Virus record (IMG/VR): IMGVR_UViG_3300044815_000143
Span: 1-56,304 of that record
Length of the DNA stretch: 56,304 nt
From: a virus
Reading direction: 5' to 3' (one strand)
Under the pieces are notes generated by a model that saw only the letters and a list, made by a program, of their open reading frames with translations, ran no database searches and was not told the DNA's origin. Position numbers and translations under genes: made by a program. This document shows, piece by piece, positions 14,318 to 36,861 of the stretch. Every line of letters starts with the position of its first letter. Position 1 is the first letter of the stretch.

Positions 14318-14470
14318 ATGAACGTCACCGAACAAGAGTTCAGAGAAGCCGTGGATGAAGCCTACGGTCTCGTTGAACCATATATCGTCGGGGCCAAGAA
14401 AGTTCCGATCCGTGTCGTCACCCTCCGGCGAATTGTCGAGGGCCTGAAACTTGGCTACAAGCTCCCATAG
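14318..14470 (+). CDS. 50-residue protein encoded between the two tRNA genes
   Basis: ATG at 14318 with AGGAATCC as ribosome binding site; 50 codons giving MNVTEQEFREAVDEAYG and ending GYKLP, stop TAG at 14468-14470. The codon content is natural and the protein acidic to neutral and helical. The last ten bases are also the first ten bases of the tRNA-Arg(CCU) gene, so the same transcript must either be translated or be processed to tRNA. Confidence 0.65.
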   Translation: MNVTEQEFREAVDEAYGLVEPYIVGAKKVPIRVVTLRRIVEGLKLGYKLP

Positions 14471-14537
14471 CTCAGACGGATAGAGCGTTCGTTTCCTAAA
14501 CGAGAGGTCGCAGGTTCGAGTCCTGCTGGGGGCGCCA
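14461..14537 (+). tRNA. tRNA-Arg(CCU)
   Basis: A canonical 77-base cloverleaf with encoded CCA. Acceptor GCTCCCA pairs with TGGGGGC, D-arm GCTC...GAGC, anticodon loop TTCCTAA with anticodon CCT at 14495-14497, and T-arm GCAGG-TTCGAGT-CCTGC. It reads AGG, which is uncommon in GC-rich genomes that favour CGN, so it probably supplements host supply. Confidence 0.93.
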
Positions 14538-18394: not shown

Positions 18395-18563
18395 CAGCGA
18401 AGCTCGCACGGTCATCCGGGACGATGTCCCGGTGCGGACCTTCATGCGGGAAGAAACCTTTCACGCCGCCAATGCCGCATGGCTGGCGGTCAACATGAAG
18501 GATGACGAGAGCGCGACCCACTGGTATGCTCGGGCGTGCAGGAGTGGGATCACGTTCGCCTAG
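18384..18563 (+). CDS. Small protein of unknown function
   Basis: About 59 residues in the frame that ends CRSGITFA. The start is uncertain: TTG at 18384 has AAGGAG (18369-18374) nine bases upstream and overlaps the previous stop; ATG at 18351 is in frame but has no ribosome binding site. It contains RTFMREETFHAANAAWLA. No family recognised. Confidence 0.5.
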   Translation: MKDNSEARTVIRDDVPVRTFMREETFHAANAAWLAVNMKDDESATHWYARACRSGITFA

Positions 18564-18622
18564 TTGCAAAACGAGGCGAATCATCCCATACCAAAAGTAG
18601 TTCTTCTGTTCGGGGTCAAGAC

Positions 18623-19519
18623 ATGCTTCTGGAAATGGCTATCGGTGACGCTTTCGGCGCCGCATTTGAATTCGTCACGCCTCAGGCCCAAAAAGAGGCG
18701 GGTCTGATAAACGATGGGCGGACGTTCCAGAACAATCCGCAAATCCCCATCGGTGGCGGGCGCTACACCGATGACACTCAGATGGCTCTGGCGATGGCCG
18801 AACAAATGGTCCATGGCGTTCCGCTGACGCGGGAGCTTTTCTTCGAGAAAGTTTTCAACACCTTCCACCGCGACCCCCGTGAGGGTTATGGGACGAAAAC
18901 GGGCAACATCCTGCGGATCAGCAAAGACCCGGATGACTTCCAGTTCCGGATGTCGGGTGAAGAGGTTTCGAGTCGGTCTGGAGCCGCCATGCGGTCTGGT
19001 CCGTTCGGACTTTATTCGAGCACCACCGAAGTCATCGAACTGTCCACCCGCCAAGCCTCGTTCACGCACGACACCGAGGAAGGCCGTGAGGGCGCCAAGG
19101 CTGTCGCGCTGATGACGCACTACTTCGCCTACGACCTCGGCCCCAAGGCCCGTCTGGGAGCGTTCCTAGAGGACTTGACCGATGTCTATGCGTGGAACTC
19201 GCCGTGGGAATCGTGGGTGTCGTACTACGCTCACCCGGTGGTTTCGGCGGCGATCACGGCGGTGACCAACTCGCGGAGCATGACGGAGGTGTTCAAGAAC
19301 AGCGTGGCCTTCGGCGGTGACGTGGACACTGTTGCGGCCATTGCCAGTTTCGCGGCCAGCCTGTCACCAGAGATCGAGAACGACATCGACCTCAATCTTT
19401 ACGACATGCTGGAAGATGGACCGTTCGGATCGAGATATCTGACTACTATCGACGAACAACTCGCCGAGTTCGCGCGGACGCAGGGCGCCAAGGTCTTCAC
19501 TCGGATTCGGGCTTCCTAA
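18623..19519 (+). CDS. ADP-ribosylglycohydrolase (DraG/ARH family)
   Basis: A 298-residue protein of family-typical length. It starts MLLEMAIGDAFGAAFEF, the conserved N-terminal GDAxGxxxE block; GGRYTDDTQM at about residue 52 supplies the first Asp pair of the binuclear metal site; AFGGDVDTVAAI at about residue 230 supplies the second (G-G-D-x-D-T). ARH enzymes remove ADP-ribose from proteins, nucleic acids or small molecules with Mg2+/Mn2+. Here it would reverse the action of the phage's own or host transferases. GGGGT before the ATG supports this start over the upstream in-frame ones. The 3' end overlaps the convergent zinc-ribbon gene. Confidence 0.9.
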   Translation: MLLEMAIGDAFGAAFEFVTPQAQKEAGLINDGRTFQNNPQIPIGGGRYTDDTQMALAMAEQMVHGVPLTRELFFEKVFNTFHRDPREGYGTKTGNILRISKDPDDFQFRMSGEEVSSRSGAAMRSGPFGLYSSTTEVIELSTRQASFTHDTEEGREGAKAVALMTHYFAYDLGPKARLGAFLEDLTDVYAWNSPWESWVSYYAHPVVSAAITAVTNSRSMTEVFKNSVAFGGDVDTVAAIASFAASLSPEIENDIDLNLYDMLEDGPFGSRYLTTIDEQLAEFARTQGAKVFTRIRAS

Positions 19520-20156: not shown

Positions 20157-20687
20157 TTACTTGGCGAGATGTCGCAGGAGAGGCGTTGGGTCTTGCAACC
20201 ATTGCGGTTGAGGCTGGCCCGGCTCCCAAGTGGCGCACTCTTGCACACCATCTTCATAGAATTCTAGGTGAAGCATTGACATCGGCCGCCCCTTGTTTTT
20301 CTTCAGGACGGTCTCGACATGGCCGATCATCTGGCCAGCCTTGATTCGCTCATGCAGAGCGAAATGCAACGGGATGATCTCGCCGTAAACGACCACGCCG
20401 GACGCTCCCCGGACCATCAAAGCCTTTGTGTCGTTCCACCATGGGCTGTCAGCCGCCGGGCCTGTGAACGGGAAAGAACTGAGCTTGTAGCAGTCCTCGA
20501 CCGCATAAACGGGCGTTCCCTGCGGCGCATAGAGGTCTACGCCCTCATGGGTGTGGTTTCGGCGCTCGTAGCCGAAGCTCCCGACGTGAGGATGCAACGG
20601 TAGGCCGGTGAAGCCCTCCGGCATGGCCTCGAACGATTGGGAGTCGGCGGTGGCGATCAGGTCAAACGGTACAGGATTGACCCACAT
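20157..20687 (-). CDS. M23-like (lysostaphin-type) peptidase with altered HxH motif
   Basis: A 176-residue protein. NHTHEGVDLYAPQGTPVYA matches the M23 HxxxD zinc block followed by the G-TPV-A turn; GVVVYGEI, GQMIGHV and SMLHLEFY follow in the family order. The final motif is usually HxH; here it is Met-Leu-His, so the zinc-binding His remains but the His that assists catalysis is replaced. It may be a cell-wall endopeptidase acting on peptidoglycan cross-links, or an inactive wall-binding relative. There is no signal peptide. It directly follows the macro-domain gene (adjacent stop and start). Confidence 0.75.
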   Translation of the reverse strand: MWVNPVPFDLIATADSQSFEAMPEGFTGLPLHPHVGSFGYERRNHTHEGVDLYAPQGTPVYAVEDCYKLSSFPFTGPAADSPWWNDTKALMVRGASGVVVYGEIIPLHFALHERIKAGQMIGHVETVLKKNKGRPMSMLHLEFYEDGVQECATWEPGQPQPQWLQDPTPLLRHLAK

Positions 20688-21218
20688 TTACGCTAGCGCC
20701 GCATCCAGATCAGCTTGCGTCTGGACGTAGACCACCGGCTTGAAAGCTGTGGCGTGCGTCTCGATGATCGAGGCGATGATCGGCCAGCGGCCTTGGGCCA
20801 GTCCGGCGCCGATCAGGGGGAGCGACACGCGCGGCTTGCCGATGGGGCGTTGCATCCCCGCAAGAATTCCAGCGTAGGAGAAGATTTGGTAATTGATATC
20901 GGCCATGGCCACGGCCATGCCGTCGTAGGTCACGTAGCGAGTGTCCGGCGCGCGGCCGTAGAATTCCTGCGTGATCGCGTTGAACAGGATCAGTTCCTGT
21001 TCTGGGGCCGCCGGGTGTGGAGTAATGACCGTCACCACTTGACCGGTCAACAGACCTTCGGTCTCGTACACCTTGCGGTAGCTTTTGAAGATGTTCTCGT
21101 CGTGGTCGCGCCAGAGCTTGGCAACGCCTGAGCCCATGGCCCCTTGGGCGTTGCAGCCTTGGATGGAGAACTCTTCCGGCGCCTTCATCAGGTCGCCGAT
21201 GATATACTCAATGTTCAC
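20688..21218 (-). CDS. Macro-domain protein (ADP-ribose binding/processing)
   Basis: A 176-residue stand-alone macro domain with a GTG start and GGAG ribosome binding site. EYIIGDLMKAP supplies the adenine-contacting Asp, GCNAQGAMGSGVAKLW is the Gly-rich catalytic loop close to that of Poa1p-type ADP-ribose 1''-phosphatases, and LPLIGAGLAQGRWP is the second phosphate-binding loop. Members bind ADP-ribose and hydrolyse ADP-ribosyl esters, ADP-ribose 1''-phosphate or ADP-ribosylated bases. It lies between the RING/TerD-like gene and the M23-like gene, about 1.2 kb from the glycohydrolase. Confidence 0.88.
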   Translation of the reverse strand: MNIEYIIGDLMKAPEEFSIQGCNAQGAMGSGVAKLWRDHDENIFKSYRKVYETEGLLTGQVVTVITPHPAAPEQELILFNAITQEFYGRAPDTRYVTYDGMAVAMADINYQIFSYAGILAGMQRPIGKPRVSLPLIGAGLAQGRWPIIASIIETHATAFKPVVYVQTQADLDAALA

Positions 21219-21220
21219 GC

Positions 21221-23446
21221 TTATTTCTCCAGCAACTTCAGGACGGAGTCCAGCGGGGTGCTGGCGCGCGAGAAATCGACGGTCGGACCATCGGGGTTGT
21301 AATTGGCTTTCGCGAACAGGGTGATCACGTCATGCGCGGTCACCTTACGGTCGGGCAGGCGGACCATGGCCTTGGTCAGGGTCATGAATTTGTTCGTCTG
21401 ATCGGCGACCGCGCCATAGCGGCTGTTGGCTCCGGCGATGTCGATGTAGATCATCTCGCAGGTTTCCAGATCGAACAGCAGCGGGATGTTCGAGGTCGTC
21501 GGCGTGGTCACGGTCATCTTTACCGCGACGGATTCCGGTTCGAACAGTTCGCCAGATCGCAGCGCGTCGCGTTCCATATAACCCGCGAAGCACTTGAAAT
21601 TGTTGAACGGGATACCCGTGTACGAGATCACCGACATGGCGACGTAGCGGATGCCACGCTTCTTGAACCGAGCGATGTCGAAATCGATGTACTCGGACGC
21701 ACCATCGGGGGCGCTTTGGATGTCGCCCGAGTGGACGGCGCCGGTGGCGGCCAGATTGTGGTACGAGATTTGTTCAATCTGGTTGAAATTCTCGTCATAG
21801 GCGAGCAGAGACAGGTCCACGTCGGAAGAGTTCTTCCAGTAGATGAACATGCGGATCGTCGAGGCATCGACGACCGGATAGCGCGAACCTCGGGTCAACG
21901 CCACGTTCGTCGAAGAAGCCGAGCGGGCGCCGAACGGAATCATCACACCCTTCAGGTCGTCGTTGACCACTCCGTTGAACAGGGTGGTGGACGAAAACCG
22001 ATTGATGATCTCGCTTTCGAACGCGGTGACGAGTTCGGACGTGACTTCCGGCGCGATTTTCTTGCGCTTGTCCGGGACGATCTGGACCTTGGACACCGAC
22101 CCCTTCGGGAAGAACATGCGATCTTCATGGGTGTTCGCCGACCGGTGAATGAAATACTTGCGCATTTCGAACAGCGTCGTGGTCTTCAGGTTGGGAAGGA
22201 TGACATTGACGGCGTTCAGCACTTCGCGCGTCGTCGGGACAGATTCGTCGGCGAGATCGGCGTTGTGCAGCGCGGCGAAGATCGCGTCTCGCGCCACGGC
22301 CGATTTCTTCTTGGTCGTGGCGGCGATGCGCAGAAGATTGTCCAGACGACGCATGAACTCGCCCGGACGCGTGGACAGCGTGGCCAGCAGCACGGGGTCG
22401 ATGGTCTTGGATCGAATGCCCTTCTCGACGATCTTGCCGAACGTCTGGATCGATTTCGGATCGGCGCGCAGGGTGTCGAACGCAGCCGACATCTTCGGGT
22501 ACTTGCGCTTATTTTCCTGCGACATTGTGGCCAGAAGTTCGGCCACGCGCAGCCAGCGCTCGCGGTGACGCATCAGGTCTTCGAGGAAGTTGTCGTTGGA
22601 GGCCGACGCTTCGAGCAAACGCAGAACCTGCTTCTTCTGCGAGGTGGTCAGCTTGAATTTGACCTTGTCCTTCAGGGACAGGTCGCCATCTTCCTGCGAC
22701 AGGAAGGTCGCGATGCGCAGAACGTCGGTAGCGCCCGACAGCATCGAAGCCGTATAGGACGTGTCGTTGAAGTAGACGTGAACGAAGGGCAGGTTCTCGC
22801 GATACACAGCCTTGGGCCGTTCAACCGGGAGACGCAAGTACTTGAAAGCGTTCAGGAATACTTTCTCGTCGGGTTTCAGCGACGACTGGCGAGCCAGCAT
22901 ACCGCTGATCTGGCCGGTAACGGTCTCGGCCGTCGCCAGATTCAGAATCTTCAGAGGCGTGATGCTGGCGAAATCGTGCAGGGGCGGCGAGGTCACGCCT
23001 TGCAGTTCGGGAACCTGACGCTGGCAGATTGGGCAGGCGCCGAACTCGGTCAGGTCGAACTGGTTGTGGTCGATGACATGGCCGCACGACAGAACGGCAT
23101 AGTTGTTCGGCTTCAGGCCGAACGCATTGTTCATGTGGCCGGTGACGCGGTTCATCAGATAGGTGTGCTGATCCGGCGTGCTGTACGGGAATTTCTTGAA
23201 CAGAACGTTGTTCGTGTTCGCGTCGGCGCCGCTGACATCGGCCAGCGTTTCGCTCAGGCGGGTGGCGATCACCGAGAACGTGGCTTGAGGCGTGATCGCG
23301 AGCGCGCGAATCAGATCGCCGGACAGCGTGTAGCCGAGCGTCGAGATGTAAAGGTTGAGGGCGACGACGCGTGCGTCGTTACGGTCGCCGACATGGTCAG
23401 GAGCGGGAACGTACACTTCCGAGAAGAGTTGGATTTGCTCGCGCAT
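21221..23446 (-). CDS. RING-type zinc finger plus TerD-like domain protein
   Basis: A 741-residue protein. Residues about 118-145 carry LSCGHVIDHN and ACPICQRQVP, a RING/zinc-ribbon Cys-His set. A long helical repeat region follows (about 230-450). The C-terminal about 220 residues resemble TerD: SSDVDLSLLAYDEN, a Y-H-N and HSGDI segment, and SEYIDFDIARF, fitting the D-x-D and GDN calcium-binding pattern. Its arrangement recalls the bacterial MXAN_6230/SCO0854 RING-domain family. TerD proteins belong to stress and phage-resistance networks; the phage copy may interfere with them. CGGGG precedes the ATG; its leader contains a structured RNA element. Confidence 0.7.
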   Translation of the reverse strand: MREQIQLFSEVYVPAPDHVGDRNDARVVALNLYISTLGYTLSGDLIRALAITPQATFSVIATRLSETLADVSGADANTNNVLFKKFPYSTPDQHTYLMNRVTGHMNNAFGLKPNNYAVLSCGHVIDHNQFDLTEFGACPICQRQVPELQGVTSPPLHDFASITPLKILNLATAETVTGQISGMLARQSSLKPDEKVFLNAFKYLRLPVERPKAVYRENLPFVHVYFNDTSYTASMLSGATDVLRIATFLSQEDGDLSLKDKVKFKLTTSQKKQVLRLLEASASNDNFLEDLMRHRERWLRVAELLATMSQENKRKYPKMSAAFDTLRADPKSIQTFGKIVEKGIRSKTIDPVLLATLSTRPGEFMRRLDNLLRIAATTKKKSAVARDAIFAALHNADLADESVPTTREVLNAVNVILPNLKTTTLFEMRKYFIHRSANTHEDRMFFPKGSVSKVQIVPDKRKKIAPEVTSELVTAFESEIINRFSSTTLFNGVVNDDLKGVMIPFGARSASSTNVALTRGSRYPVVDASTIRMFIYWKNSSDVDLSLLAYDENFNQIEQISYHNLAATGAVHSGDIQSAPDGASEYIDFDIARFKKRGIRYVAMSVISYTGIPFNNFKCFAGYMERDALRSGELFEPESVAVKMTVTTPTTSNIPLLFDLETCEMIYIDIAGANSRYGAVADQTNKFMTLTKAMVRLPDRKVTAHDVITLFAKANYNPDGPTVDFSRASTPLDSVLKLLEK

Positions 23447-24149: not shown

Positions 24150-24418
24150 TCTTCCTTGTCGCCCAAGCTCTGGAAAACATTGAACAGATTGGTATGCGCT
24201 TGATGTACGAGCCTGAAGGCTTCGGGATCAAGAACAAGCGTGGGGTCATCAAGCAGGGCGCGCTCGACCGTCTCCATGGTCAGATAAGCGACATGTGAGG
24301 TCGTGCCGTACTGACTTGGAGTTTGATGCCGGGCCGGACTGAAATCTGGAGCCTCTGCAAAACGCGCCAAACGTTCGAGACGGTCGGTTTCGATGTCTTC
24401 ATTCGTGTACTCGATCAC
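24146..24418 (-). CDS. Small protein of unknown function
   Basis: A 90-residue product. GTG at 24418 overlaps the stop of the NADAR-like gene (GTGA), implying coupling; a longer reading would run deep into that gene. It starts VIEYTNEDIETDRL and is mostly helical. No family recognised. Confidence 0.65.
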   Translation of the reverse strand: MIEYTNEDIETDRLERLARFAEAPDFSPARHQTPSQYGTTSHVAYLTMETVERALLDDPTLVLDPEAFRLVHQAHTNLFNVFQSLGDKED

Positions 24419-24897
24419 AGTAGGCCAAGCTCCAGTAATTGCGCGAGGGCGCGTAGACGATACATCTGATGGATATACTCCCACTCCGTCAAGGTCGTAT
24501 CGGTCGGATCATGCTTGCCCATGACATGGGTCAGGACCATAACGCCAGAATCGATGAGTGCGGTTCGGAAGGCTTCATTCTCGGCGAAGCACTGGTCGTA
24601 GGCTCTCTCAAGCAAATGGTGGTACTGTTTGGAGAATCGAGGGTAGGCGACACCACACCACCATAGGGTTTGTGTTTCCTTCCATCCATTTCCTAGTTGT
24701 CCGATCTTGAAGGCTTCGTAGCCATGAAGACCGGCGACCAGTTCCTGTTCTTCGGAACCCTCGTGTTTGATTGATTGAAGGAACCCTTCGATTGACCCAC
24801 ACTGGACGTTGTCGAGCGTGAAAGCGTAGGGCATGAGGTTGGAAAGTGCCTTTCCAAGCCCACCATTGCGAAATCCGAGATCGAGAAATGCTGACAT
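24415..24897 (-). CDS. NADAR (YbiA-like) domain protein
   Basis: A 160-residue protein from the ATG at 24897. The YbiA/NADAR hallmark is visible: GGLGKALSNLMPYAF (LSN motif), then QCGSIEGFLQSIKHEG, matching the family's S-x-E-x-x-x-Q-x-x-K helix, and LHGYEAFKIG. NADAR enzymes cleave N-glycosidic bonds of ADP-ribose-like compounds, including removal of ADP-ribose from guanine, or of riboflavin intermediates. It fits the ADP-ribose theme of the region. The promoter -10 lies six bases before the ATG, so the message is probably leaderless. Confidence 0.75.
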   Translation of the reverse strand: MSAFLDLGFRNGGLGKALSNLMPYAFTLDNVQCGSIEGFLQSIKHEGSEEQELVAGLHGYEAFKIGQLGNGWKETQTLWWCGVAYPRFSKQYHHLLERAYDQCFAENEAFRTALIDSGVMVLTHVMGKHDPTDTTLTEWEYIHQMYRLRALAQLLELGLL

Positions 24898-24903
24898 TTT
24901 CTT

Positions 24904-24933
24904 AGTATGCCACAAAAGCCGAATTACCTGCAA
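24904..24933 (-). promoter_or_regulatory. Sigma70-like promoter giving a leaderless NADAR mRNA
   Basis: Minus strand TTGCAG (24933-24928), 18 bases, CATACT (24909-24904), six bases, then ATG at 24897. Confidence 0.5.
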
Positions 24934-25095: not shown

Positions 25096-25740
25096 ATGCA
25101 GCAAGAACAAGCGAATGTCGGCGCACACAACGAAGCGGTGACCGAAGTCCTCAACATCCTCGTGAAGCACAACCTCGTCACCGGTGGCGCCGTCGCCGCT
25201 GTCGGCCGCATCAGCGACGCTCTGGCCAGCGAATTCGGCCTGACCCCGTCCGTTCCCGCCACGGCCGCCGAAACCGGCCCGTCGCGCGAGCCGGTCATCT
25301 CGCCGCGCAAGTCGATCCATCCCGAGTACCTGATCTGCCTGTTCGACGGCCAGCAACTGAAGATGCTGAAGCGCTACCTGCGCACCCACTACAACATGAC
25401 CCCGGACCAGTACCGCGCGCACTTCAACCTGCCGAAGGACTACCCGATGGTCGCCCCGGCCTACTCGGAACGTCGTTCGCAACTGGCCATCGCCACCGGC
25501 CTCGGCGTGAAGCCCGGCTCGCGCGGCGTTCGCGGCAAGGCCACCGGCGCCCCGGCCATCCAAGCTCCGGCCCCGGCTCCCACGGCCGCCGCCAAGCCGA
25601 AGGTGACCCACGCCCACAAGGCTCCGGCCAAGCCGAAGTCGGCGCCGAAGGCCCCGCCCGTCGCCGCCAAGGACGCGGTGCAGTCGGAAGCGGCCCAAGC
25701 CGCCACCGATCTGGCCAAGTCGCCGGAACCCGTCGCCTAA
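25096..25740 (+). CDS. MucR/Ros-family transcriptional regulator with Ala/Pro/Lys tail
   Basis: A 214-residue protein. Residues about 75-145 match MucR closely: SIHPEYLICLFDGQQLK, LKRYLRTHYNMTPDQYR, LPKDYPMVAPAYSERRS and GLG. MucR/Ros proteins bind AT-rich DNA and act as H-NS-like silencers in alphaproteobacteria. The zinc-finger ligands are incomplete: the second Cys is Asp and the first His of RHL is Tyr, as in zinc-independent relatives. The C-terminal about 70 residues are a low-complexity Ala/Pro/Lys tail not usual for host MucR. Possible roles are displacing host silencers or controlling phage genes. It has its own promoter and terminator. Confidence 0.88.
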   Translation: MQQEQANVGAHNEAVTEVLNILVKHNLVTGGAVAAVGRISDALASEFGLTPSVPATAAETGPSREPVISPRKSIHPEYLICLFDGQQLKMLKRYLRTHYNMTPDQYRAHFNLPKDYPMVAPAYSERRSQLAIATGLGVKPGSRGVRGKATGAPAIQAPAPAPTAAAKPKVTHAHKAPAKPKSAPKAPPVAAKDAVQSEAAQAATDLAKSPEPVA

Positions 25741-25773
25741 ACCCAGAGCCCAACAATCTGGGTTTGAACGAGA

Positions 25774-25802
25774 GCCACTGGGGAAACCCAGTGGCTTTTT
25801 TT
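25774..25802 (+). terminator. Rho-independent terminator
   Basis: GCCACTGGG (25774-25782), GAAA loop, CCCAGTGGC (25787-25795), then seven T. A weaker hairpin ACCCAGA/TCTGGGT lies just upstream. Confidence 0.92.
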
Positions 25803-25823: not shown

Positions 25824-25853
25824 TTGACTTCGGGCTCGACTTAAGGCTAAATA
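25824..25853 (+). promoter_or_regulatory. Promoter of the NAD+ biosynthesis operon
   Basis: TTGACT (25824-25829), 18 bases, TAAATA (25848-25853). A small AGAGG/CCTCT hairpin follows at about 25865-25880, in the leader before the first gene. Confidence 0.6.
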
Positions 25854-25907
25854 GAATTATACGCAGAGGGCTGATCCTCTCGTAACATTACATGGCGGAA
25901 ACTCACC

Positions 25908-27125
25908 ATGGTCGAACGACCCCCGAAGGGGCGGCTCACTGCGCCGCTCATCAATCCCGAACCGGAGGTCATGTTTGACCTAGCCGTATTCATCGGCCGC
26001 TTCCAGCCCTTCCACTTCGGACACCTCCACGTCATCCTGATCGCCCTGTTGCGCGCGAAATTCGTGCTGATCAACGTCGGCTCTCTCGATCTGGCCCGTC
26101 GCCCGGACCACAATCCCCTAACCGCCAGCGAACGCGAATCCATGATCCGGGCCTGTCTGACCCCGGAACAGAACGCCCGCGTCGTCTTCCGTTACTGCCG
26201 CGACTACGGCAACATGCCGTTGTGGACGGCCGCTATCCGCCGCAACGTCAAGGAAGTCGTCGAGGCCAAGGGCTTCGATGATCCCAACGTCACCCTGATC
26301 GGTCACTCCAAGGATCGCAGCAGCTTCTACCTTCGGGCGTTCCCCGAGTGGGACAGCATCGACGTTGAGCCGATGCCCATCGACGGCTGCGGCAACCACA
26401 CCCTGTCGGCCACGCCGATGCGCCGGGCCTATTTCGCCGAAGATGGCGTTTTGGTCGATCACTGGCTGAACCACGAATTCCCGAAATTCATGCCGCAAGG
26501 CGCCATCGACTGGCTGAAGGAATTCAAGACCACCGACGACTATAAGGACATGGTCGAAGAATGGGCCTTCCATCGCAAGTACGACACGCTGTACGACAGC
26601 GAAGCGCGGCGGCGTGGATGGTGGCAGTTCTTCGTGACCGTGGACAACATCGTCGTCTGTAACGGTCACGTCCTGCTGATTCAGCGCAAGAACCGGCCCG
26701 GCCGTAATCTCTGGGCGTTCCCCGGCGGTTTCCTCGAACTCGACGAGTATATCGAACAAGGGAGCCTGCGGGAGCTTCACGAGGAAACCCGCATCCGCGT
26801 TCCGGAAAGCGTTCTCAAGGGCTCCATCGTCACCACCAAGGTGTTCGACAACCCGCACCGTTCGATGCGCGGCCGGACGATCACCCACGCAACTCTGTAC
26901 CACATCGTCCCGAAGGCTCCGAAGCGCCATCCCAAGGAAAGCGCGGCCGACTACAAAGTGCGCCTGAACGAGGCCCTGAAGCGCCCGGAAGTCCGGGCCG
27001 CCGACGATGCCAAGCAAGCCATCTGGATTCCCATCGACGAATTCCTGCAAATGCAGGCCGTCATGTTCGAAGACCATTTCTCCATGGGCGAAGCAATGCT
27101 GGCCCTCCTACCGAAGGAAGACTGA
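25908..27125 (+). CDS. nadM: Bifunctional NMN adenylyltransferase/Nudix hydrolase (NadM-Nudix)
   Basis: A 405-residue two-domain enzyme. Residues about 22-190 are a NadM adenylyltransferase: FIGRFQPFHFGHLHVI contains the HxGH nucleotide-binding motif and LSATPMRRAYF is the ISxTxxR motif. It joins ATP to (nicotinate or nicotinamide) mononucleotide. Residues about 240-400 are Nudix, with the box GGFLELDEYIEQGSLRELHEE; in this architecture it usually cleaves ADP-ribose. The in-frame ATG at 25971 (MFDLAVFIGRF) is an alternative start preceded by GGAGG, but only two bases away. It opens the NAD+ operon. Confidence 0.92.
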   Translation: MVERPPKGRLTAPLINPEPEVMFDLAVFIGRFQPFHFGHLHVILIALLRAKFVLINVGSLDLARRPDHNPLTASERESMIRACLTPEQNARVVFRYCRDYGNMPLWTAAIRRNVKEVVEAKGFDDPNVTLIGHSKDRSSFYLRAFPEWDSIDVEPMPIDGCGNHTLSATPMRRAYFAEDGVLVDHWLNHEFPKFMPQGAIDWLKEFKTTDDYKDMVEEWAFHRKYDTLYDSEARRRGWWQFFVTVDNIVVCNGHVLLIQRKNRPGRNLWAFPGGFLELDEYIEQGSLRELHEETRIRVPESVLKGSIVTTKVFDNPHRSMRGRTITHATLYHIVPKAPKRHPKESAADYKVRLNEALKRPEVRAADDAKQAIWIPIDEFLQMQAVMFEDHFSMGEAMLALLPKED

Positions 27126-27128
27126 TCC

Positions 27129-28487
27129 ATGGATTTCGCCAAGCGCGCTCATGACCACAACTTCCGCATGGACCCCATCGTGCGGAACCTGACCGACACC
27201 GACTTCTATAAGCCTCTGATGCAGCAGTTCCTGTGGCGGCGGTTTCCGGGCGTGAACTCCGTCTGGAAACAGAAGAACCGCACCACCGACGTTCCGCTGG
27301 CCGAGCAGGTCACCATCGAAGAACTGCGCGAGCAATTCGACCATGCCCGGACGCTCAAGCACACCAAGTCGGAACTGATCAACTACGCCGGTCAGACGTT
27401 CTCCGGCGTGACGGGCATCTTTCGGTCGGGTTACATCGACTTCCTTCGCACCTATCAACTACCAGAGTACAGCATCGAGCACGAACGGGCCTACAACGGC
27501 TCGGTCGGCTACAACACCGGGCAGTACGACATCCAGTATGCGGGCAAGCTGTGTGAAAGCACGGGCTGGGAAATTCCGAGCCTGACAATCACCAATGAAT
27601 TGCGCAACCGCCATCTCCTGCGCCAGCACACCAAGTCCGAACTCGACATCATGTACGCTCGGGCCAAGGTGAAGCTGTACGACAAGCTTCTGGCCCTGAC
27701 GGCGCCGGAACTCGAAGGCATCAGCGTCACCGAGTTCGGCACGCGTCGGCGGCACTCGTTCCTCTGGCAGGAATGGGTCGTCCAGACCATGGCCGAAGTG
27801 CTCGGAGTACGGTTCGGCGGCACGTCCAACGTCTATCTCGCCATGCAACATGGTCTGGAAGCGCGGGGCACGAACGCCCACGAACTGCCGATGGCCTACG
27901 CCGCGATGGCCGATGGTGACGAGGCCCTGAAGAACTCGCCGTACATGCTCGCCCGAGACTGGCAGGCCGATCATCCGGAAGCCCTGCGCATCATGCTGCC
28001 GGACACCTACGGGTCCACGAGCTACTTCGAAAACTCGCCTAGCTGGCTGTCGGACTGGGCGGGTTTCCGTCCTGACTCCAAGAAACCGATTCCGGCTATC
28101 GAGGAAGGCATTGCCTACTGGAAGCTTCACTCGCAGCCCGTGGCGGAAAAGCTGGTCATTCCCAATGACGGCCTCGACGTTCACTTGCCGCACCAAAAGG
28201 CGCACGGCGAGGACATCCCCACGATCTACCTGAAATTCAAGGGGCAAGTCCGACAATCGTTCGGCTGGGGAACGCTGGCCACCAACGACTTCCACGGCTG
28301 CTCGCCGAAGGGATACGACTTCATGAAGCCGATCAGCATCGTCTGCAAGCTGCAATCGGTCGATGGCAAGCCGTGCGTCAAGCTGTCGGACAACTACGAC
28401 AAGGCCATCGGCCCGCCGGAAGAGATCGCGCGCTACCACCGCGTGTTCGGAACCAAGGGCATGGTCGGCGCACCGGTGTTCGTCTGA
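27129..28487 (+). CDS. pncB: Nicotinate phosphoribosyltransferase (PncB)
   Basis: A 452-residue protein. It matches PncB throughout: LTDTDFYKPLMQQFL near the N-terminus, FGTRRRHSFLWQEW, FGGTSNVYLAM, the GTNAHELPMAY segment whose His is the phosphorylated residue in the family, and QSFGWGTLATNDF followed by KPISIVCKLQSVDGKP. It converts nicotinate plus PRPP to nicotinate mononucleotide, using ATP. It is somewhat longer than E. coli PncB (400 residues). It starts 3 bases after nadM, whose enzyme uses the product; an in-frame ATG at 27168 is a possible alternative. Confidence 0.9.
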   Translation: MDFAKRAHDHNFRMDPIVRNLTDTDFYKPLMQQFLWRRFPGVNSVWKQKNRTTDVPLAEQVTIEELREQFDHARTLKHTKSELINYAGQTFSGVTGIFRSGYIDFLRTYQLPEYSIEHERAYNGSVGYNTGQYDIQYAGKLCESTGWEIPSLTITNELRNRHLLRQHTKSELDIMYARAKVKLYDKLLALTAPELEGISVTEFGTRRRHSFLWQEWVVQTMAEVLGVRFGGTSNVYLAMQHGLEARGTNAHELPMAYAAMADGDEALKNSPYMLARDWQADHPEALRIMLPDTYGSTSYFENSPSWLSDWAGFRPDSKKPIPAIEEGIAYWKLHSQPVAEKLVIPNDGLDVHLPHQKAHGEDIPTIYLKFKGQVRQSFGWGTLATNDFHGCSPKGYDFMKPISIVCKLQSVDGKPCVKLSDNYDKAIGPPEEIARYHRVFGTKGMVGAPVFV

Positions 28488-28690
28488 TGCCCGCCAAACC
28501 CTCCATGCGGTTCGATTATGACCAGTCCGCATTGGTCGAACTGGTGATCGCCGATCTGAGGGCCAAGGGTTACGACCCCGAGCCCAATGAAATCAAGGTC
28601 AAGATTACCGACAGCAAGCAATACTACAGCCCGCTCGACGCGGGTGAGTCCGCTCGGATCGAGATCAGTTTCTCGACTCGTACCAGCTAA
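28487..28690 (+). CDS. Small protein of unknown function
   Basis: A 67-residue product, ATG sharing one base with the pncB stop (TGATG). It starts MPAKPSMRFDYDQSALVEL and has a helix then two strands (IKVKITD, ARIEISFS). No family recognised; it may be an accessory of the operon. Confidence 0.68.
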   Translation: MPAKPSMRFDYDQSALVELVIADLRAKGYDPEPNEIKVKITDSKQYYSPLDAGESARIEISFSTRTS

Positions 28691-28695
28691 TTTCG

Positions 28696-28723
28696 TTGAC
28701 CAGAATTTAAACACAACTATCCT
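28696..28723 (+). promoter_or_regulatory. Sigma70-like promoter before pncA
   Basis: TTGACC (28696-28701), 16 bases, TATCCT (28718-28723). Confidence 0.5.
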
Positions 28724-28740
28724 GCGAATAGGAGCCGACT

Positions 28741-29388
28741 ATGATCCAAATCCATAAAAAATCCGCGTTGATCGTTGTTGATCCGCAAATCGATTTCTGC
28801 CCCGATGGCGCGCTCGCCGTCGCCGGTGGTGACGAAATCATGCAGACCGTGAACGAACTGTCGTTTCATTTTCGCGGTGAGGGTGGCGTGATCGTCACCA
28901 CGCAGGACTGGCACCCGGCCGGACACAAATCGTTCGCCAGCGCACACGGCGTGGCGCCGTTCAGCATCGTTCAACTGTCATACGGTGATCAGGTTGCATG
29001 GCCGGACCACTGCCTGCAAGGCACGGAAGGCGCAGAATTCCACCCGGACGTGGAAGTCACCGTCCTGCGATCCCACGCGATTATCCGCAAGGGCATGAAC
29101 CGCGAACTCGACAGTTACTCGGCCCACTACGAGAACGATCAGATCACCCCGACCGGCCTGACCGGATACCTGCGCTCGCGTGGGGTCGAGGACGTGTACT
29201 ATTGTGGTCTGGCCCGCGATTTCTGCGTCGGGTTCTCGGCCCTCGACGGCGTGAAGGATGGCTTCAACACCCTTCTGATCGACGACGCGACGCGCTTCAT
29301 CGCTGACAAGTCCAATAACGATATGACCGAGAAACTGATCGCCGCTGGCGTGAAGTTCGTCGCCGCCACCGACATCACCAGCCTCTAA
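28741..29388 (+). CDS. pncA: Nicotinamidase (PncA, isochorismatase-like fold)
   Basis: A 215-residue enzyme hydrolysing nicotinamide to nicotinate and ammonia, the first step of the Preiss-Handler route. The catalytic triad is visible: Asp in IVVDPQIDF (about residue 14), Lys in IIRKGMN (about 118) and Cys in LARDFCVGF (about 160). QDWHPAGHKSF supplies the metal-binding Asp/His/His. TAGGAGCC is a strong ribosome binding site. It has its own promoter within the operon. Confidence 0.95.
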   Translation: MIQIHKKSALIVVDPQIDFCPDGALAVAGGDEIMQTVNELSFHFRGEGGVIVTTQDWHPAGHKSFASAHGVAPFSIVQLSYGDQVAWPDHCLQGTEGAEFHPDVEVTVLRSHAIIRKGMNRELDSYSAHYENDQITPTGLTGYLRSRGVEDVYYCGLARDFCVGFSALDGVKDGFNTLLIDDATRFIADKSNNDMTEKLIAAGVKFVAATDITSL

Positions 29389-29403
29389 ACCGGAACGCGC
29401 TCA

Positions 29404-30498
29404 GTGTTTTATCCCAACGCTCTCTTCATCGACGGCAAGGTCGCCCCCATCGAAAAGGCCTTTGGCCGAACTGATGAGCAACCGAACGTGGTTTTTCTCA
29501 AGACCAACACCGTCGATGAAGAACGCCGTAACAGCATCGCCGCGTGGTTGACCAACAACCAAGACAGTGGGGATTGCGTCTGGATCGCCGGATCGCGTTG
29601 GGGAGAGAGGGGAACCCCGCCATTCCTCGTCATGAACGACGGCGCGGCCTGCTGGAGCCAATATGCCTTCGATAATGTCGAACTGGCGGAAGCGTTCTCA
29701 GTGGACTTCAGCGACATTCTCGTCACGACGCGTGACTATGACTACACGCGTTTCGATGAACCGAGCACCGACGTTTTTCTGGGAGGCTCGCTCTGGGAAC
29801 GCACGGACAAGAAAGGCGTAAAATCCCAGTACTATCGTGCTGAAGGCGATATGTGGTTCTCGGACAGCCCCTATTCGATCATCAAGGACCGCCTCGGTCT
29901 TGACATCGAGCCGGGTAAAGTTCGGAACCTGCTGTCGTGGGCGGGCGGACGGTCGCTTGGTATCTTTTACTACCTGAGCACGGTCGCGGATGGTCAAGGG
30001 GCGGAAATCACTAACGAGATCGCCAACTTCATCCTCGGCCCGCTGGCAGGAAGCATGAAAGAACGCGATATCGGATACGTCAAGCGCAGCACAGTGCTCC
30101 ATGAAACGGCTCTGATCGAATTGGGGCGGGCCATGGCTCTGAACCTCGTCCCGTCCTCGGCGCGCAAGGAACTCTATCCGCTCCTGATCAAGCGTTACAA
30201 CACCGAGTTCTTCGAGCTTTTGGCCGTGACCATGGGCACGGTCGAAGAGGCGGCGCGCCTCGCGTTCTACAACATCCTCGCCGAAGTTCTGGAGCCTATT
30301 TTCTCACAGGCCGGGGGAGACGAGATCAACGCCATGATCAAGGCGGTTCTCGACGCGAATCCGACACAGGCCGCGCTCGTCGCTGCCAAGGACCAGAAGG
30401 TCATCGGTTGGGCCATGGGCCAAGTCATGAACGCGGCCAAGCCCACCAAACTCGATCCTGCGACCGTCCGCGCGGCGATCCTCAAGTACCAAGGTTAA
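29404..30498 (+). CDS. Protein with C-terminal GatB/YqeY-like tail domain
   Basis: A 364-residue protein from a GTG start, between pncA and nadE. The N-terminal about 200 residues are not recognised (a WIAGSRWGERGTPPF segment and mixed alpha/beta). The C-terminal part ends QKVIGWAMGQVMNAAKPTK, which matches the GatB/YqeY tail consensus G-x-x-x-GQVM-K-A-x-G. That domain binds tRNA in the amidotransferase GatCAB; here it may bind tRNA or serve as a helical adaptor. Its presence in a NAD+ operon is unexplained. Confidence 0.6.
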   Translation: MFYPNALFIDGKVAPIEKAFGRTDEQPNVVFLKTNTVDEERRNSIAAWLTNNQDSGDCVWIAGSRWGERGTPPFLVMNDGAACWSQYAFDNVELAEAFSVDFSDILVTTRDYDYTRFDEPSTDVFLGGSLWERTDKKGVKSQYYRAEGDMWFSDSPYSIIKDRLGLDIEPGKVRNLLSWAGGRSLGIFYYLSTVADGQGAEITNEIANFILGPLAGSMKERDIGYVKRSTVLHETALIELGRAMALNLVPSSARKELYPLLIKRYNTEFFELLAVTMGTVEEAARLAFYNILAEVLEPIFSQAGGDEINAMIKAVLDANPTQAALVAAKDQKVIGWAMGQVMNAAKPTKLDPATVRAAILKYQG

Positions 30499-30502
30499 GA
30501 GT

Positions 30503-32212
30503 ATGAAGATCAAGATCGCCGTTGTGCAAATGAACCCGGTTGTCGGCGATTTGGCCGGGAACCTCAAAAAGATCATGGCCGAGTACGTCAAGGCGGCGGG
30601 AGCGGGCGCGAACATCGTCATCACGCCTGAAATGTCCCTGACCGGCTACCCGCTGGAAGACTTGGTCTTGCGTCACAGCTTCATGGACGCTGTCAGCCAA
30701 TTCACCAGTGAACTGATCACCCGCGTGATGCAGTCGGGGGAAGAAGCCACTCTGATCTTCGGGGCGCCCGCCAAGAGCCTCGACGGCGTGGGAGTGACCA
30801 ACACCGCCTACCTGTTCGATCCTCTGGATTCCAAGTCCGTGCGCTGGGTCATGAAGACCGAACTGCCCAACTACGGCGTGTTCGATGAGAAACGCATCTT
30901 CAAGCCGTCCGCCTACGAGAACAGCGCCTTCATGTGGCGGGGCTACCGTCTGGGCCTGATGGTCTGCGAGGATGCGTGGTTCCCGAAGGTCACCCAGCAA
31001 CTGGTGGAGACCGGGGCGACCTTTCTGATCGCCATCAACGGCTCGCCGTTCGAGGTCGGCAAGAACGTCGTCCGTCGTCAAATCATCGCCAACCGGATCA
31101 AGGAATCCGGCCTGCCGTTCCTCTACGCCAACCTCGTTGGTGGGCAGGACGAACTGGTGTTCGACGGAGGATCGTTCTTCTACGACGGTAAGACGATGCA
31201 GGAGGCGCCACACTTCGTTGAGGGAACTTTCTTCTTCGATGCCGAACTCGGCCCGAACACCAAGAAAATCACCCTCGACAACTATCCGACCGTTCAGCCG
31301 ACTGGTATCGGAGAAATCTATCAGGCCTGCACGCTGGGCCTGAAGGATTACCTGCGTAAGCAACGGTTCGGGAGCGTGGCGCTGGGCTACAGCGGCGGCG
31401 TGGACTCCGGTATCGTGGCGGCCATGGCCTGTGACGCGCTGGGCGCTGATCTGGTTCACCTCGTGCGCCTTCCGTCCAAGTTCTCGTCGGACGGTTCGCT
31501 GACCGACGCGGCCGAAGGCGCCAAGCGGCTGGGCGCGCCGATGCGGACCATCGCCATCGAGCCCATCGTGGATGCCCTGCGTCTGGCCTACCGTGATGCC
31601 GAATACAGCTATCGGGAAAACGAATGCGAACACCTGACCGGTGTCGCCGACGAAAACATCCAAGCCCGCGCTCGCGGCAACATCCTGATGGCCATCTCGA
31701 ACCAAGAGGGCCACATGATCCTGACCACCGGCAATAAATCGGAAGTCAGTGTCGGCTACAGCACCCTCTATGGCGACATGAGCGGTGGTTTCAACCCGAT
31801 CAAGGACTGCTACAAGACCACGGTCTGGGAACTCTGCCGCTGGCGCAATGGTCTTACACCGGATCAGGTGAAAGACCACGGCTTCCTTGGCCATGGGGGC
31901 TACGACGTGGTCCCGGAAGAGATCATCGTCAAGCCGCCGAGCGCCGAGCTTCGGGCGGATCAGAAAGACAGCGACAGCCTGCCGGAATATCCGGTGCTGG
32001 ACGCGATCCTGAAGGCGATGATCGAAGACGAGATGAGCGTTCATACCATCGTCGAGGAACTGAAACTCCGGTTGGACATCGTGCAGAAAATCCGTCGCTT
32101 GGTGGACAATGCGGAGTATAAGCGTCGGCAAGCGGCGCCGGGCGTGAAGATCACCAGCAAGATTCACGGCAAGGATCGTCGCTACCCCATCGTCAACCAC
32201 TGGAGGGGATGA
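30503..32212 (+). CDS. nadE: Glutamine-dependent NAD+ synthetase (NadE)
   Basis: A 569-residue two-domain enzyme, the usual bacterial length. Residues about 1-270 are a nitrilase-type glutaminase: Glu in TPEMSLTGYP, Lys in KTELPNYGVFDE and Cys in LMVCEDAWF. Residues about 290-569 are the synthetase domain with the ATP PP-loop LGYSGGVDSGIVAAM, and TTGNKSEVSVGYSTLYGD. It amidates nicotinate adenine dinucleotide to NAD+, the last step after PncA, PncB and NadM encoded just upstream. Confidence 0.95.
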   Translation: MKIKIAVVQMNPVVGDLAGNLKKIMAEYVKAAGAGANIVITPEMSLTGYPLEDLVLRHSFMDAVSQFTSELITRVMQSGEEATLIFGAPAKSLDGVGVTNTAYLFDPLDSKSVRWVMKTELPNYGVFDEKRIFKPSAYENSAFMWRGYRLGLMVCEDAWFPKVTQQLVETGATFLIAINGSPFEVGKNVVRRQIIANRIKESGLPFLYANLVGGQDELVFDGGSFFYDGKTMQEAPHFVEGTFFFDAELGPNTKKITLDNYPTVQPTGIGEIYQACTLGLKDYLRKQRFGSVALGYSGGVDSGIVAAMACDALGADLVHLVRLPSKFSSDGSLTDAAEGAKRLGAPMRTIAIEPIVDALRLAYRDAEYSYRENECEHLTGVADENIQARARGNILMAISNQEGHMILTTGNKSEVSVGYSTLYGDMSGGFNPIKDCYKTTVWELCRWRNGLTPDQVKDHGFLGHGGYDVVPEEIIVKPPSAELRADQKDSDSLPEYPVLDAILKAMIEDEMSVHTIVEELKLRLDIVQKIRRLVDNAEYKRRQAAPGVKITSKIHGKDRRYPIVNHWRG

Positions 32213-32739
32213 CAGCGATGCTATTCACCAACGACCCTTCCAAAATCCCCGACACGCTCGGGGCCTTCAACAAGGAAACCGACATGATCCGGGATCGTCT
32301 GAACAGAGCCGCCGAAGCCGTCAGTGGCGTGGCCAACCGTGCAGCCGCCAAGGTCGGCGAGATCGCCACCTCGGCCGCTGAAGTCGCCGGTGACTTCTCC
32401 GAGGCGGCTCACAAGGAGGTCAAAGCCCTGAAAGACTTGGCCAAGTCGGATGACACCATCTGGCTGGTTCTCGACGGTTTCGGCAAGCCGATGGCCGCAT
32501 CGTCTTCGGCGAGCAAGGCCGAAGTTCTGGTCGGTAGGGCCAACACCGTTCTCCAGAAATTCTTCGACCTTCCGAAAGAAGAAAAGTCGGCGGCTCTCGA
32601 CACCGTCGCCACCGATTTGCTGGCGATTTTCCCACATGTGAAAGATGGTACGGCGCTGGTGAACAACACGCTGAAATCCTTCATCATCAGCGATGGCGAG
32701 CCGCCGTTCACGACCGAAAAACTCGAAATAGACGTGTAA
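32209..32739 (+). CDS. Helical protein of unknown function
   Basis: A 176-residue product whose ATG overlaps the nadE stop by 4 bases. Residues about 25-80 are an Ala-rich amphipathic helix (AAEAVSGVANRAAAKVGEIA), suitable for coiled coil or membrane association; the C-terminal half is a mixed domain (IWLVLDGFGKPM). No family recognised. Confidence 0.7.
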   Translation: MTAMLFTNDPSKIPDTLGAFNKETDMIRDRLNRAAEAVSGVANRAAAKVGEIATSAAEVAGDFSEAAHKEVKALKDLAKSDDTIWLVLDGFGKPMAASSSASKAEVLVGRANTVLQKFFDLPKEEKSAALDTVATDLLAIFPHVKDGTALVNNTLKSFIISDGEPPFTTEKLEIDV

Positions 32740-32745
32740 TTCTGG

Positions 32746-32774
32746 TTGACCAAATTCCGGATAAGGGTGATGGT
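32746..32774 (+). promoter_or_regulatory. Weak promoter candidate
   Basis: TTGACC (32746-32751), 17 bases, GATGGT (32769-32774). The -35 context TGGTTGACC recurs at 33486 and, on the minus strand, at 40678. Confidence 0.35.
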
Positions 32775-32804
32775 GAACTTATTAACCATGCTTCCGGGGA
32801 CATT

Positions 32805-33476
32805 ATGTTCGGCATCACCCTTCTGGAATTTGGCACGCTCTGGTTCTGGAGCGCCGCATTCCTCCCATTTTTCATCCTGATCGCGCTCGTCGAGAACGAG
32901 AAATCGGGCTGGGCGGCGTTCACCACGGCCGCGACCATCGCGGCTCTCATTTCCTTCGGCAACATGGGCTGGTTGTCGTGGATCGCCAAGCACCCTCTGC
33001 TGCTGGTTGCCTACATCATCGGCTACCTCGTTGTGGGTATCGGCTGGGGTGTCGCCAAGTGGGGCTTCTACGCCGCCCACATGCTGGCCGACTATGAAGC
33101 ATTCCGTCGCAAGTGGATCGAGAAAAACGGTCTGATCCGTGACGAGGCCCTGCCGAAAGAGCAACTGCAATACGGCAAGGGTACCCAAGACACGCACGGT
33201 TCCAAGACGTGGCGAGACCGTTTCATCTCCGAAGCCAGTCAAGCCCGAGTCGGCGCGCCGAACCTCGCCGCCAACAGCACCCGGATCATCTTCTGGATGT
33301 CGTACTGGCCCGCCTCGGCCGTCTGGACCCTGTTGCACGATCCGATCACGCACCTCTATCGCTTGATCTACGCTCGCATGATCAACGTCTTCAACGGCAT
33401 CACCACGATGATGTTCGGCAAGTACAACAGCGATTTCGTCGCTGCCGAAGTCAAGGCTCCCGAAACCGGCGCGTAA
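32805..33476 (+). CDS. Inner-membrane protein
   Basis: A 223-residue protein with three predicted transmembrane segments near the N-terminus (about residues 8-28, 35-55 and 65-90; for example LWFWSAAFLPFFILIAL and LLLVAYIIGYLVVGIGWG) and a probable fourth hydrophobic segment at about 163-182. The remainder is a charged cytoplasmic region. No family recognised. Confidence 0.75.
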   Translation: MFGITLLEFGTLWFWSAAFLPFFILIALVENEKSGWAAFTTAATIAALISFGNMGWLSWIAKHPLLLVAYIIGYLVVGIGWGVAKWGFYAAHMLADYEAFRRKWIEKNGLIRDEALPKEQLQYGKGTQDTHGSKTWRDRFISEASQARVGAPNLAANSTRIIFWMSYWPASAVWTLLHDPITHLYRLIYARMINVFNGITTMMFGKYNSDFVAAEVKAPETGA

Positions 33477-33544: not shown

Positions 33545-35176
<1,632 letters not shown>

Positions 35177-35181
35177 AAATC

Positions 35182-35211
35182 GAGCCCTCGGTGCAAACCG
35201 GGGGCTCTTTT
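35182..35211 (+). terminator. Rho-independent terminator of metG
   Basis: GAGCCCTCGG (35182-35191) pairs with CCGGGGGCTC (35198-35207), one mismatch or wobble, then TTTT. Confidence 0.9.
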
Positions 35212-35805: not shown

Positions 35806-35831
35806 GGCCCGGTTAGTAGCCGGGCCTTTTT
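35806..35831. terminator. Bidirectional terminator between convergent genes
   Basis: GGCCCGG (35806-35812) pairs with CCGGGCC (35820-35826), then five T on the plus strand. The minus-strand methyltransferase ends inside it, also followed by a short T run on that strand. Confidence 0.85.
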
Positions 35832-36826
35832 GCGTCCCATTCCCGCTTCACGCGGATGATCTGCTCGCCGATCCACCGAACGTCGAGCACGTTCAGGGAA
35901 TTTCCGATGACCTTGTAGCGCGCGGTGTCGGAAGCCGGACGGCCTTCGAACTCCACCAAAGTGTGATTATCAGTAATTCCCATAAGCCGTTCCGCTTCGA
36001 TAGGGGTCAGGCGACGAATGATCGGGAACACTCCGTCATCGACCAGCGCATGAGGCTTGTCGGAGCCACCAGTGGCCGCCAGAAGGCAGTTGGCTACTTG
36101 GTTGCCGACTTCGACCCTTTCGCCTTTTTCCCGGCCCCTGAACGCGACACTGAACGCGCGTTCTCCAGCGCTTGTTTCAAGAGCGGCTGCAAGGTCGCTC
36201 CTTGTTCCTCCGCTTGCCGGAGGAACTTGGCTGCGCGTGTAGGACTCAAATAGTACGTCTCTAGGGTCTGGTCCGTCTGAAGGACAGGCCACAAGGAAGA
36301 GCCTTTCCCGCTGTTGCGGAACGCCTGAGTATTCGGCGTTGAAGAGTCGCCATGCGATGTTGCGCTTTGGTCCAAGCACATAACCAGCGTGCGTCCACTT
36401 TTTCCCTGAAGGGACAAGCGGCTCATCTTCTCCGGCCAGCGCTGCGAGTAGGTGTCCGAAGGCGTTGTATTTGTCACTGAGGGCTCCCTTGACGTTTTCC
36501 CAGCATACGAATTGAGGATCGATTTCATCGGCGAGATCGACGAACGATAGCATCAGGGCGCCGCGCGGGTCCTTGAGGCCACGGCGCAGACCAGCCAGCG
36601 ATACCGACTGACATGGCGTTGAACCCCACAGGATATCGAGTTCACCTCTCCACGGCCGACCATCGATTTGCGTCAGGTCGCCGAGATTGGGAACATGCGC
36701 CCATCGTGTCGCGAGAATAGTGTTCGCGAACAAATCGACCTCAGAGAAGAACTTTGGAGTCATGCCAATAGGTTCCCACGCGAGTGAGACCGCATCAACA
36801 CCTGAGCAAGTGGTTCCGTATTTCAT
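35813..36826 (-). CDS. DNA (cytosine-5-)-methyltransferase
   Basis: A 337-residue C5 methyltransferase from the ATG at 36826 (MKYGTTCSGVDAVSL). Motif I is TCSGVDA, motif IV is WGSTPCQSVSLAG with the catalytic Cys, motif VI is CWENVKGA, motif VIII is QQRERLFLVA, and motifs IX-X are RLTPIEAERLMGI and VIGNSLNV. All core residues are present. No restriction endonuclease is adjacent, so it is solitary and may protect phage DNA or alter host methylation. The promoter sits five bases before the ATG, giving a probably leaderless transcript. Confidence 0.93.
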   Translation of the reverse strand: MKYGTTCSGVDAVSLAWEPIGMTPKFFSEVDLFANTILATRWAHVPNLGDLTQIDGRPWRGELDILWGSTPCQSVSLAGLRRGLKDPRGALMLSFVDLADEIDPQFVCWENVKGALSDKYNAFGHLLAALAGEDEPLVPSGKKWTHAGYVLGPKRNIAWRLFNAEYSGVPQQRERLFLVACPSDGPDPRDVLFESYTRSQVPPASGGTRSDLAAALETSAGERAFSVAFRGREKGERVEVGNQVANCLLAATGGSDKPHALVDDGVFPIIRRLTPIEAERLMGITDNHTLVEFEGRPASDTARYKVIGNSLNVLDVRWIGEQIIRVKREWDAKRPGY

Positions 36827-36831
36827 TCCCC

Positions 36832-36861
36832 ATAATACCAAATACGGAAATTCGAACGCAA
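36832..36861 (-). promoter_or_regulatory. Sigma70-like promoter giving a leaderless methyltransferase mRNA
   Basis: Minus strand TTGCGT (36861-36856), 18 bases, TATTAT (36837-36832), GGGGA, ATG at 36826. Confidence 0.6.

Follow-up and report, generated by a model that had tools for sequence, protein, structure and literature searches.

A complete enzyme set for rebuilding NAD+ from nicotinamide is predicted for the phage represented by IMG/VR virus record IMGVR_UViG_3300044815_000143, of which the whole stretch of 56,304 nucleotides (positions 1 to 56,304; hereafter, the window) was analysed. Four genes on one strand encode a NadM-Nudix fusion protein, nicotinate phosphoribosyltransferase (PncB), nicotinamidase (PncA), and glutamine-dependent NAD+ synthetase (NadE). 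Judging from these enzymes, the block is very likely able to make NAD+ from nicotinamide, and its best overall explanation, which we hold with good confidence, is that of a phage operon for NAD+ resynthesis via deamidated intermediates. As read from gene content, this deamidating ("PncA-type") phage route is recurrent, and it is unlike both NARP1 and NARP2. The four genes are:

25908-27125, + strand: NadM-Nudix, 405 amino acids (PF01467, CTP_transf_like; PF00293, NUDIX)
27129-28487, + strand: PncB, 452 amino acids (PF17767, NAPRTase_N; PF04095, NAPRTase)
28741-29388, + strand: PncA, 215 amino acids (PF00857, Isochorismatase; PRK11609)
30503-32212, + strand: NadE, 569 amino acids (PF00795, CN_hydrolase; PF02540, NAD_synthase; PRK13981)

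All four enzymes are confirmed at the level of sequence, with their catalytic motifs intact. NadM-Nudix has 2qjo and 2qjt as its closest solved structures (E about 1e-61) and reaches 315 bits against the NCBIfam NadM-Nudix models, under their curated cut-offs; it carries GRFQPFHFGH, SATPMR, and the Nudix box G-x5-E-x7-REL-x-EE, and shares a longer N-terminus with the protein of the closest relative (contig L002). PncB matches the solved structure 1ybe (E 2e-127) and PRK05321 (356 bits; cut-off 379), and contains GTNAHE, with the phospho-histidine, and FGTRRRHS; H251 of GTNAHE is invariant in 10 of 10 phage PncBs. The possibility that this protein is NadV was ruled out by the presence of PF17767 and PF04095, the lack of PF18127, and a match of only E 7e-6 to the PHROG NAMPT family. 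PncA matches 2wt9 (E 2e-57) and scores 182 bits against the PRK11609 nicotinamidase model, above the cut-off of 174; it has the residues D14, K117, and C162 as well as the metal site DWHPAGH, and these three residues and the metal ligands D56 and H58 are invariant in all ten phage PncAs compared. NadE scores 629 bits against the PRK13981 NAD+ synthase model (cut-off 479) and contains the glutaminase triad E43-K118-C155 and the SGGVDS motif; E43, C155, and the SGGVDS loop are conserved across the phage copies compared. An earlier note, made from the sequence alone, had read the four genes on one strand with their motifs, and the Pfam and NCBIfam matches, structure matches, and residue alignments bear this out: each protein falls in the family claimed for it, and the loss of catalytic residues on alignment that the note had allowed for is not seen in the window, where all motifs are present. 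The start of the block, which the note placed at 25824, moves to 25908, the first coding base.

In the proposed pathway, PncA would convert nicotinamide, such as that released when host NADases cleave NAD+, to nicotinate, from which PncB, using 5-phosphoribosyl 1-pyrophosphate (PRPP), would form nicotinate mononucleotide (NaMN). NadM would adenylylate the mononucleotide (assumed here to be NaMN, giving nicotinate adenine dinucleotide, NaAD), and NadE would complete the synthesis of NAD+ by amidation with glutamine. The Nudix half of NadM would split ADP-ribose, the other NADase product, into AMP and ribose-5-phosphate; the latter could be returned to PRPP by the PRPP synthetase of the host, or by a phage-encoded enzyme in the 578-kb closest relative. 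Of the records searched for a PRPP synthetase gene, only this relative and the 735-kb phage LR756501 gave one; the other 19, the window among them, gave none.

The step order from NaMN through NaAD to NAD+ is an assumption from enzyme families. NadM-type enzymes use nicotinamide mononucleotide (NMN) well, which would suit an alternative order: NadE would serve as an NMN synthetase with NaMN as its substrate, and NadM would then convert NMN to NAD+. The window also has NadM in place of NadD, as does Francisella, in which NadM replaces NadD, NadE became an NMN synthetase, and the route runs via NMN (PMC3376133). We nevertheless consider this order improbable for the phage. Its NadE is much nearer to 4f4h (E 4e-124), 3n05, and 5kha (both about 1e-120) than to 3fiu (only 1e-10), which we take to be the Francisella NMN synthetase, and it lies above the NAD+ synthase equivalog cut-off; in another phage, a NadD-like protein takes the adenylyl step. 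The likeness of the phage NadE to conventional NAD+ synthetases favours the Preiss-Handler order. A parallel exists in Acinetobacter, where a NadM with dual NMN/NaMN specificity works with a conventional NadE (PMC3376133); the phage set likewise pairs NadM with a conventional-type NadE (resembling 5kha), but it is phage-borne, is linked to PncA and PncB, and has a Nudix domain on NadM.

Relatives of the block were found by searching IMG/VR with NadE and PncB and then reading gene order; a scan with the window PncB alone gave nothing usable, and an alignment-based PncB query was needed. The order NadM-Nudix, PncB, PncA, glutamine-dependent NadE (type A) occurs in the window and in six IMG/VR contigs (578, 561, 279, 149, 82, and 70 kb), with strand and order kept and about 38-75% protein identity for most proteins. 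Since order and strand are conserved in these six contigs, the block is not a chance arrangement. In the 561-kb relative (L004), the GRFQPFHxGH motif of NadM (6574-7665) reads VRGQPVTLAH, while the Nudix half is still recognisable; the adenylyltransferase half of this protein may be inactive. A second order (type B: NadE, PncB, Nudix, NadM, PncA) is found in the cultured Sinorhizobium phage Phosso and eleven IMG/VR contigs, the NadE position being filled by the NH3 form or the glutamine form, depending on the contig. At one such locus, a two-domain glutamine NadE stands in two contigs (L048 and L050) and a shorter NH3 NadE in others (L043 and L044), a pattern that, on sequence comparison, is an in-place replacement of NadE within one operon type. 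Five contigs (L051-L054 and L062) have the order PncB, NadE, NadM, PncA (type C) and share the same match to PncB. Further orders occur in L081, L082, L086, LR756501 (PncA, NadR-like, PnuC-like, NadE, PncB), and the gut contig MT835470, an 'unverified' phage record (PncA, PncB, NadE, NadD-like, Nudix). Matches to 'Acinetobacter phage MD-2021a' were left uncounted: judging from the match lists alone, these seem to be bacterial contigs in which nad genes are scattered.

Phosso and Agrobacterium phage Atu_ph07, both cultured, resemble the window in having PncA, PncB, NadM-like, Nudix, and NadE genes and no NadV, but differ in gene order and in having NadM and Nudix as separate proteins. Phosso has an NH3-type NadE, in contrast to the glutamine-dependent enzyme of the window; in Atu_ph07, the PncA-like, NadM-like, Nudix, and PncB genes lie within 6 kb and NadE is about 85 kb away. 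The Atu_ph07 paper gives no description of the pathway (PMC6102473). All four Pfam families fall within 20 kb in 14 of the 17 contigs with a close PncB and in 9 of the 22 with a distant one; these contigs were picked for PncB, so that the counts describe the companions of PncB and not the frequency of the set among phages, and the breadth of PF01467 makes the adenylyltransferase count an upper estimate, the gene-level labels being firmer for close relatives. Across these phages the adenylyl step is filled by NadM-Nudix, stand-alone NadM, NadD, or NadR, and amidation by glutamine- or NH3-dependent NadE, such interchange of adenylyltransferases and NadE types being what is expected if the pathway itself is selected.

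By its gene content, the window comes from a jumbo phage resembling Phosso and Atu_ph07. Open frames run past both of its ends in this virus record, which marks it as a fragment, and it encodes phage structural genes. The best matches of its baseplate wedge protein are those of Phosso (43%) and Atu_ph07 (40%), so we place it near these 470-490 kb phages, and we infer an alphaproteobacterial host. No close nucleotide relatives of the window were found in the phage collection, where the match was to a tRNA only; the sole tRNA of the window is a tRNA-Arg (CCT) at 14461-14537 (+). In the PncB tree, the window belongs to a clade of ten members, all from phages (SH-aLRT 97); Phosso and Atu_ph07 form a second phage clade, LR756501 and MT835470 group far away (99), and the sampled alphaproteobacterial PncBs are a separate group. 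The well-supported branches require a minimum of two switches between phage and bacterium; this minimum comes from a tree in which bacteria are represented by the 80 nearest loci and several of the phage branches are long. An explanation of the four genes as functionless host-derived cargo or assembly contamination draws on the alphaproteobacterial type of PncB (1ybe), yet it is extremely improbable: the structural genes of the window are closest to those of Phosso and Atu_ph07, the cultured phage Phosso has the set, the phage PncBs fall into clades of their own, apart from the alphaproteobacterial sequences sampled, and catalytic residues are retained across divergent copies. Host contamination in particular is ruled out by the phage structural genes together with the cultured relatives.

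The phages with this set appear to do without NadV. A search for the Nampt N-terminal domain (PF18127) gave no match in eight records (the window and seven relatives, including Phosso and Atu_ph07), in 49 further census contigs, or in LR756501 and MT835470; most of the contigs searched are fragments, and Phosso and Atu_ph07 are complete genomes. Four of four positive controls (phiM19, X1, RcXuper, and nt-1) scored. These NadV-less NadM phages contrast with the published statement that every phage with NadM (NatV) also has NadV (PMC9503650, PMC7139368). Their PncA-type gene content without NadV matches the situation in bacteria, where the PncA and Nampt routes are alternatives, with either one or the other used (PMC9316036). 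Xanthomonas phage X1, for which pncB, nadM, nadD, nadE, and NAMPT have been listed (PMC13384950), is a NadV phage that also bears NadE: its NadE, NadM, and NAMPT genes lie within 6 kb (L135).

The block is part of a longer gene row, whose further members and neighbours are:

18536-19519, + strand: ADP-ribosylglycohydrolase, DraG/ARH type (PF03747, E 3e-33; phrog_6572)
20688-21218, - strand: macro-domain (ADP-ribose) protein, DarG-like (NF048014, E 2e-6, below its cut-off)
24415-24933, - strand: T4 gp30.3-family protein (PF08010, E 1e-37)
25096-25740, + strand: ROS/MucR-family regulator immediately upstream of the block (PF05443)
25770-25799, + strand: intrinsic-terminator-like hairpin between MucR and the block (13 bp stem)
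28487-28690, + strand: 67-amino-acid open reading frame overlapping the PncB stop codon, matching no known family
29404-30498, + strand: 364-amino-acid protein with a C-terminal GatB/YqeY domain, between PncA and NadE (PF02637, E 4e-8)
32209-33476, + strand: two small open reading frames (176 and 223 amino acids) continuing the operon
33545-35176, + strand: methionyl-tRNA synthetase (MetRS; Pfam/NCBIfam), the last gene ahead of the strong terminator
35182-35207, + strand: intrinsic-terminator-like hairpin past MetRS (11 bp stem, 8 G-C pairs)

Transcription probably covers 25.9-35.2 kb as one unit, from NadM-Nudix through MetRS, because strong predicted hairpin-plus-T terminators stand before NadM and after MetRS; such terminators are consensus matches, and overall the scan yields no more hairpins than shuffles do. 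The scan gave no strong terminator between the two hairpins, and successive gene gaps from NadM-Nudix onward are 3, -1, 50, 15, 4, and -4 bases. The four enzymes named in the earlier note thus account for part of the block: the 67-amino-acid open reading frame, the GatB/YqeY-tailed protein, and the probable extension to MetRS had been overlooked. Homologues of the 67-amino-acid frame were not found in relatives by phmmer. The GatB/YqeY-tailed protein has a homologue in L002 only (55% identical in alignment), gave no match in the phage collection or PHROG, and yielded a fold model that was discarded (pLDDT 42); in Sinorhizobium phage phiM19, a small GatB-like gene and an Appr-1-p processing gene both lie near NadM. 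The 223-amino-acid protein has homologues in L002 and L003. L002 also has a MetRS, and the best matches of the window MetRS in the phage collection reach only about 30-34% identity.

Of the five relatives found first, four keep the MucR gene upstream of the block, and a T4 gp30.3-family gene adjoins the block also in L002-L005; a by-eye reading of 24415-24933 as a NADAR protein was unsupported. A macro-domain gene lies near the block in L002-L004, the relatives' copies matching PF01661. In the window this gene adjoins an M23-type peptidase domain protein (20157-20687, -) and a 741-amino-acid protein (21221-23446, -) that has a prokaryotic RING-finger match (PF14447) and is conserved in L002. 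Elsewhere, the window encodes a C-5 cytosine DNA methylase (35813-36841, -), with copies in L002 and L003 at 65-71% identity, and a protein matching a QueC-like queuosine biosynthesis family (42814-43449, -; phrog_1550).

Counter-defence appears to be the best-supported purpose of the operon, by analogy and from the neighbouring ADP-ribosylglycohydrolase and macro-domain genes, and is probably its main selected role. Through a lengthy jumbo-phage infection the operon would maintain the supply of NAD+, most likely in the face of NAD+-depleting defences, and the same region encodes ADP-ribose-removing enzymes. A pathway starting at nicotinamide, with an ADP-ribosylglycohydrolase and a macro-domain protein nearby, agrees with a role in countering NADases and ADP-ribosylation. 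General metabolic support, in which a bigger NAD(H) pool would serve replication in a long infection whatever the defences of the host and NADase resistance would be a side effect, is a less probable but fair alternative. The unit does run on into MetRS and other housekeeping-like genes, Atu_ph07-like phages have many metabolic genes, and a paper on snow viruses interprets phage NAD+ genes in this way (PMC11097641); however, the set begins at nicotinamide, an NADase product, rather than solely at host precursors, the same pathway is probably already present in the host, and the ADP-ribose-removing enzymes lie nearby. PncA and Nudix alone would, from family chemistry, remove both NADase products, which raises the possibility that the operon mainly clears nicotinamide and ADP-ribose as signals or inhibitors instead of making NAD+; most members keep PncB, NadM, and NadE alongside, and we regard this as very improbable.

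Certain points weigh against a counter-defence operon for NAD+ resynthesis through deamidated intermediates. A host-encoded set of PncA, PncB, NadD, and NadE almost certainly exists, and many jumbo-phage metabolic genes have no defence role. Use of NaMN at the third step is uncertain, given how well NadM-family enzymes use NMN, and the degraded HxGH motif in L004 suggests that not every member need be complete. As the window is a fragment, a NadV gene could lie outside it. The most extended form of the proposal is that this is a third phage NAD+ reconstitution route via deamidated intermediates, put together on more than one occasion among large phages from adenylyltransferases and amidation enzymes that can replace one another, largely exclusive with NadV in phages just as with Nampt in bacteria, and defeating NAD+-depleting defences; as a whole, we consider the case for it evenly balanced.

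NARP2 is the salvage by phage NadV and NadM-Nudix (NatV) of the KVP40 type. The block resembles it in having a phage NadM-Nudix, in starting from nicotinamide and PRPP, and in ending at NAD+, but has PncA, PncB, and NadE instead of NadV; its route would take four steps through deamidated intermediates and require glutamine and extra ATP. NadM is thus present and NadV/Nampt (PF18127) was not found, in a window that is itself a fragment. NARP1 (Adps and Namat) is similar in that the phage rebuilds NAD+ from NADase products; here, however, ADP-ribose would not be re-used whole, and at most would be split by Nudix. No block gene matched the Adps/Namat pair in the Pfam, NCBIfam, and PHROG scans, in which no dedicated Adps or Namat model was run. 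The chemistry and enzyme families are those of the bacterial PncA-PncB-NadD-NadE route (nicotinamidase plus Preiss-Handler), from which the block differs in being phage-borne, in forming one operon, and in using NadM-Nudix in place of NadD. A precedent is the huge phage 5-SewaE, for which a two-sentence mention in 2023 describes four genes converting nicotinamide to NAD+ (PMC10747093); this phage belongs to another huge-phage clade, and the mention itself leaves the genes unnamed and offers no census or NadV test. No third named NAD+ reconstitution pathway appeared in the literature searched, outside which key primary papers lie. The earlier view of the block as a different and more complete solution therefore holds in that the set is complete on paper and its gene content is unlike that of NARP1 or NadV plus NadM; it is not unique, given Phosso, Atu_ph07, the IMG/VR contigs, and the 2023 report. 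The finding is recurrent and testable, and not categorically new.

Phage restoration of NAD+ is a recent theme in counter-defence, with two routes described. A third route, starting with a nicotinamidase and ending with an NAD+ synthetase, found in several gene orders and in no examined contig together with NadV, would add to the genes worth seeking in phages and would correct the claim that NadM in phages is always partnered by NadV. The cultured phages Phosso and Atu_ph07 provide a test case, and the two-step and four-step NAD+ routes would offer a natural comparison under the same selective pressure.

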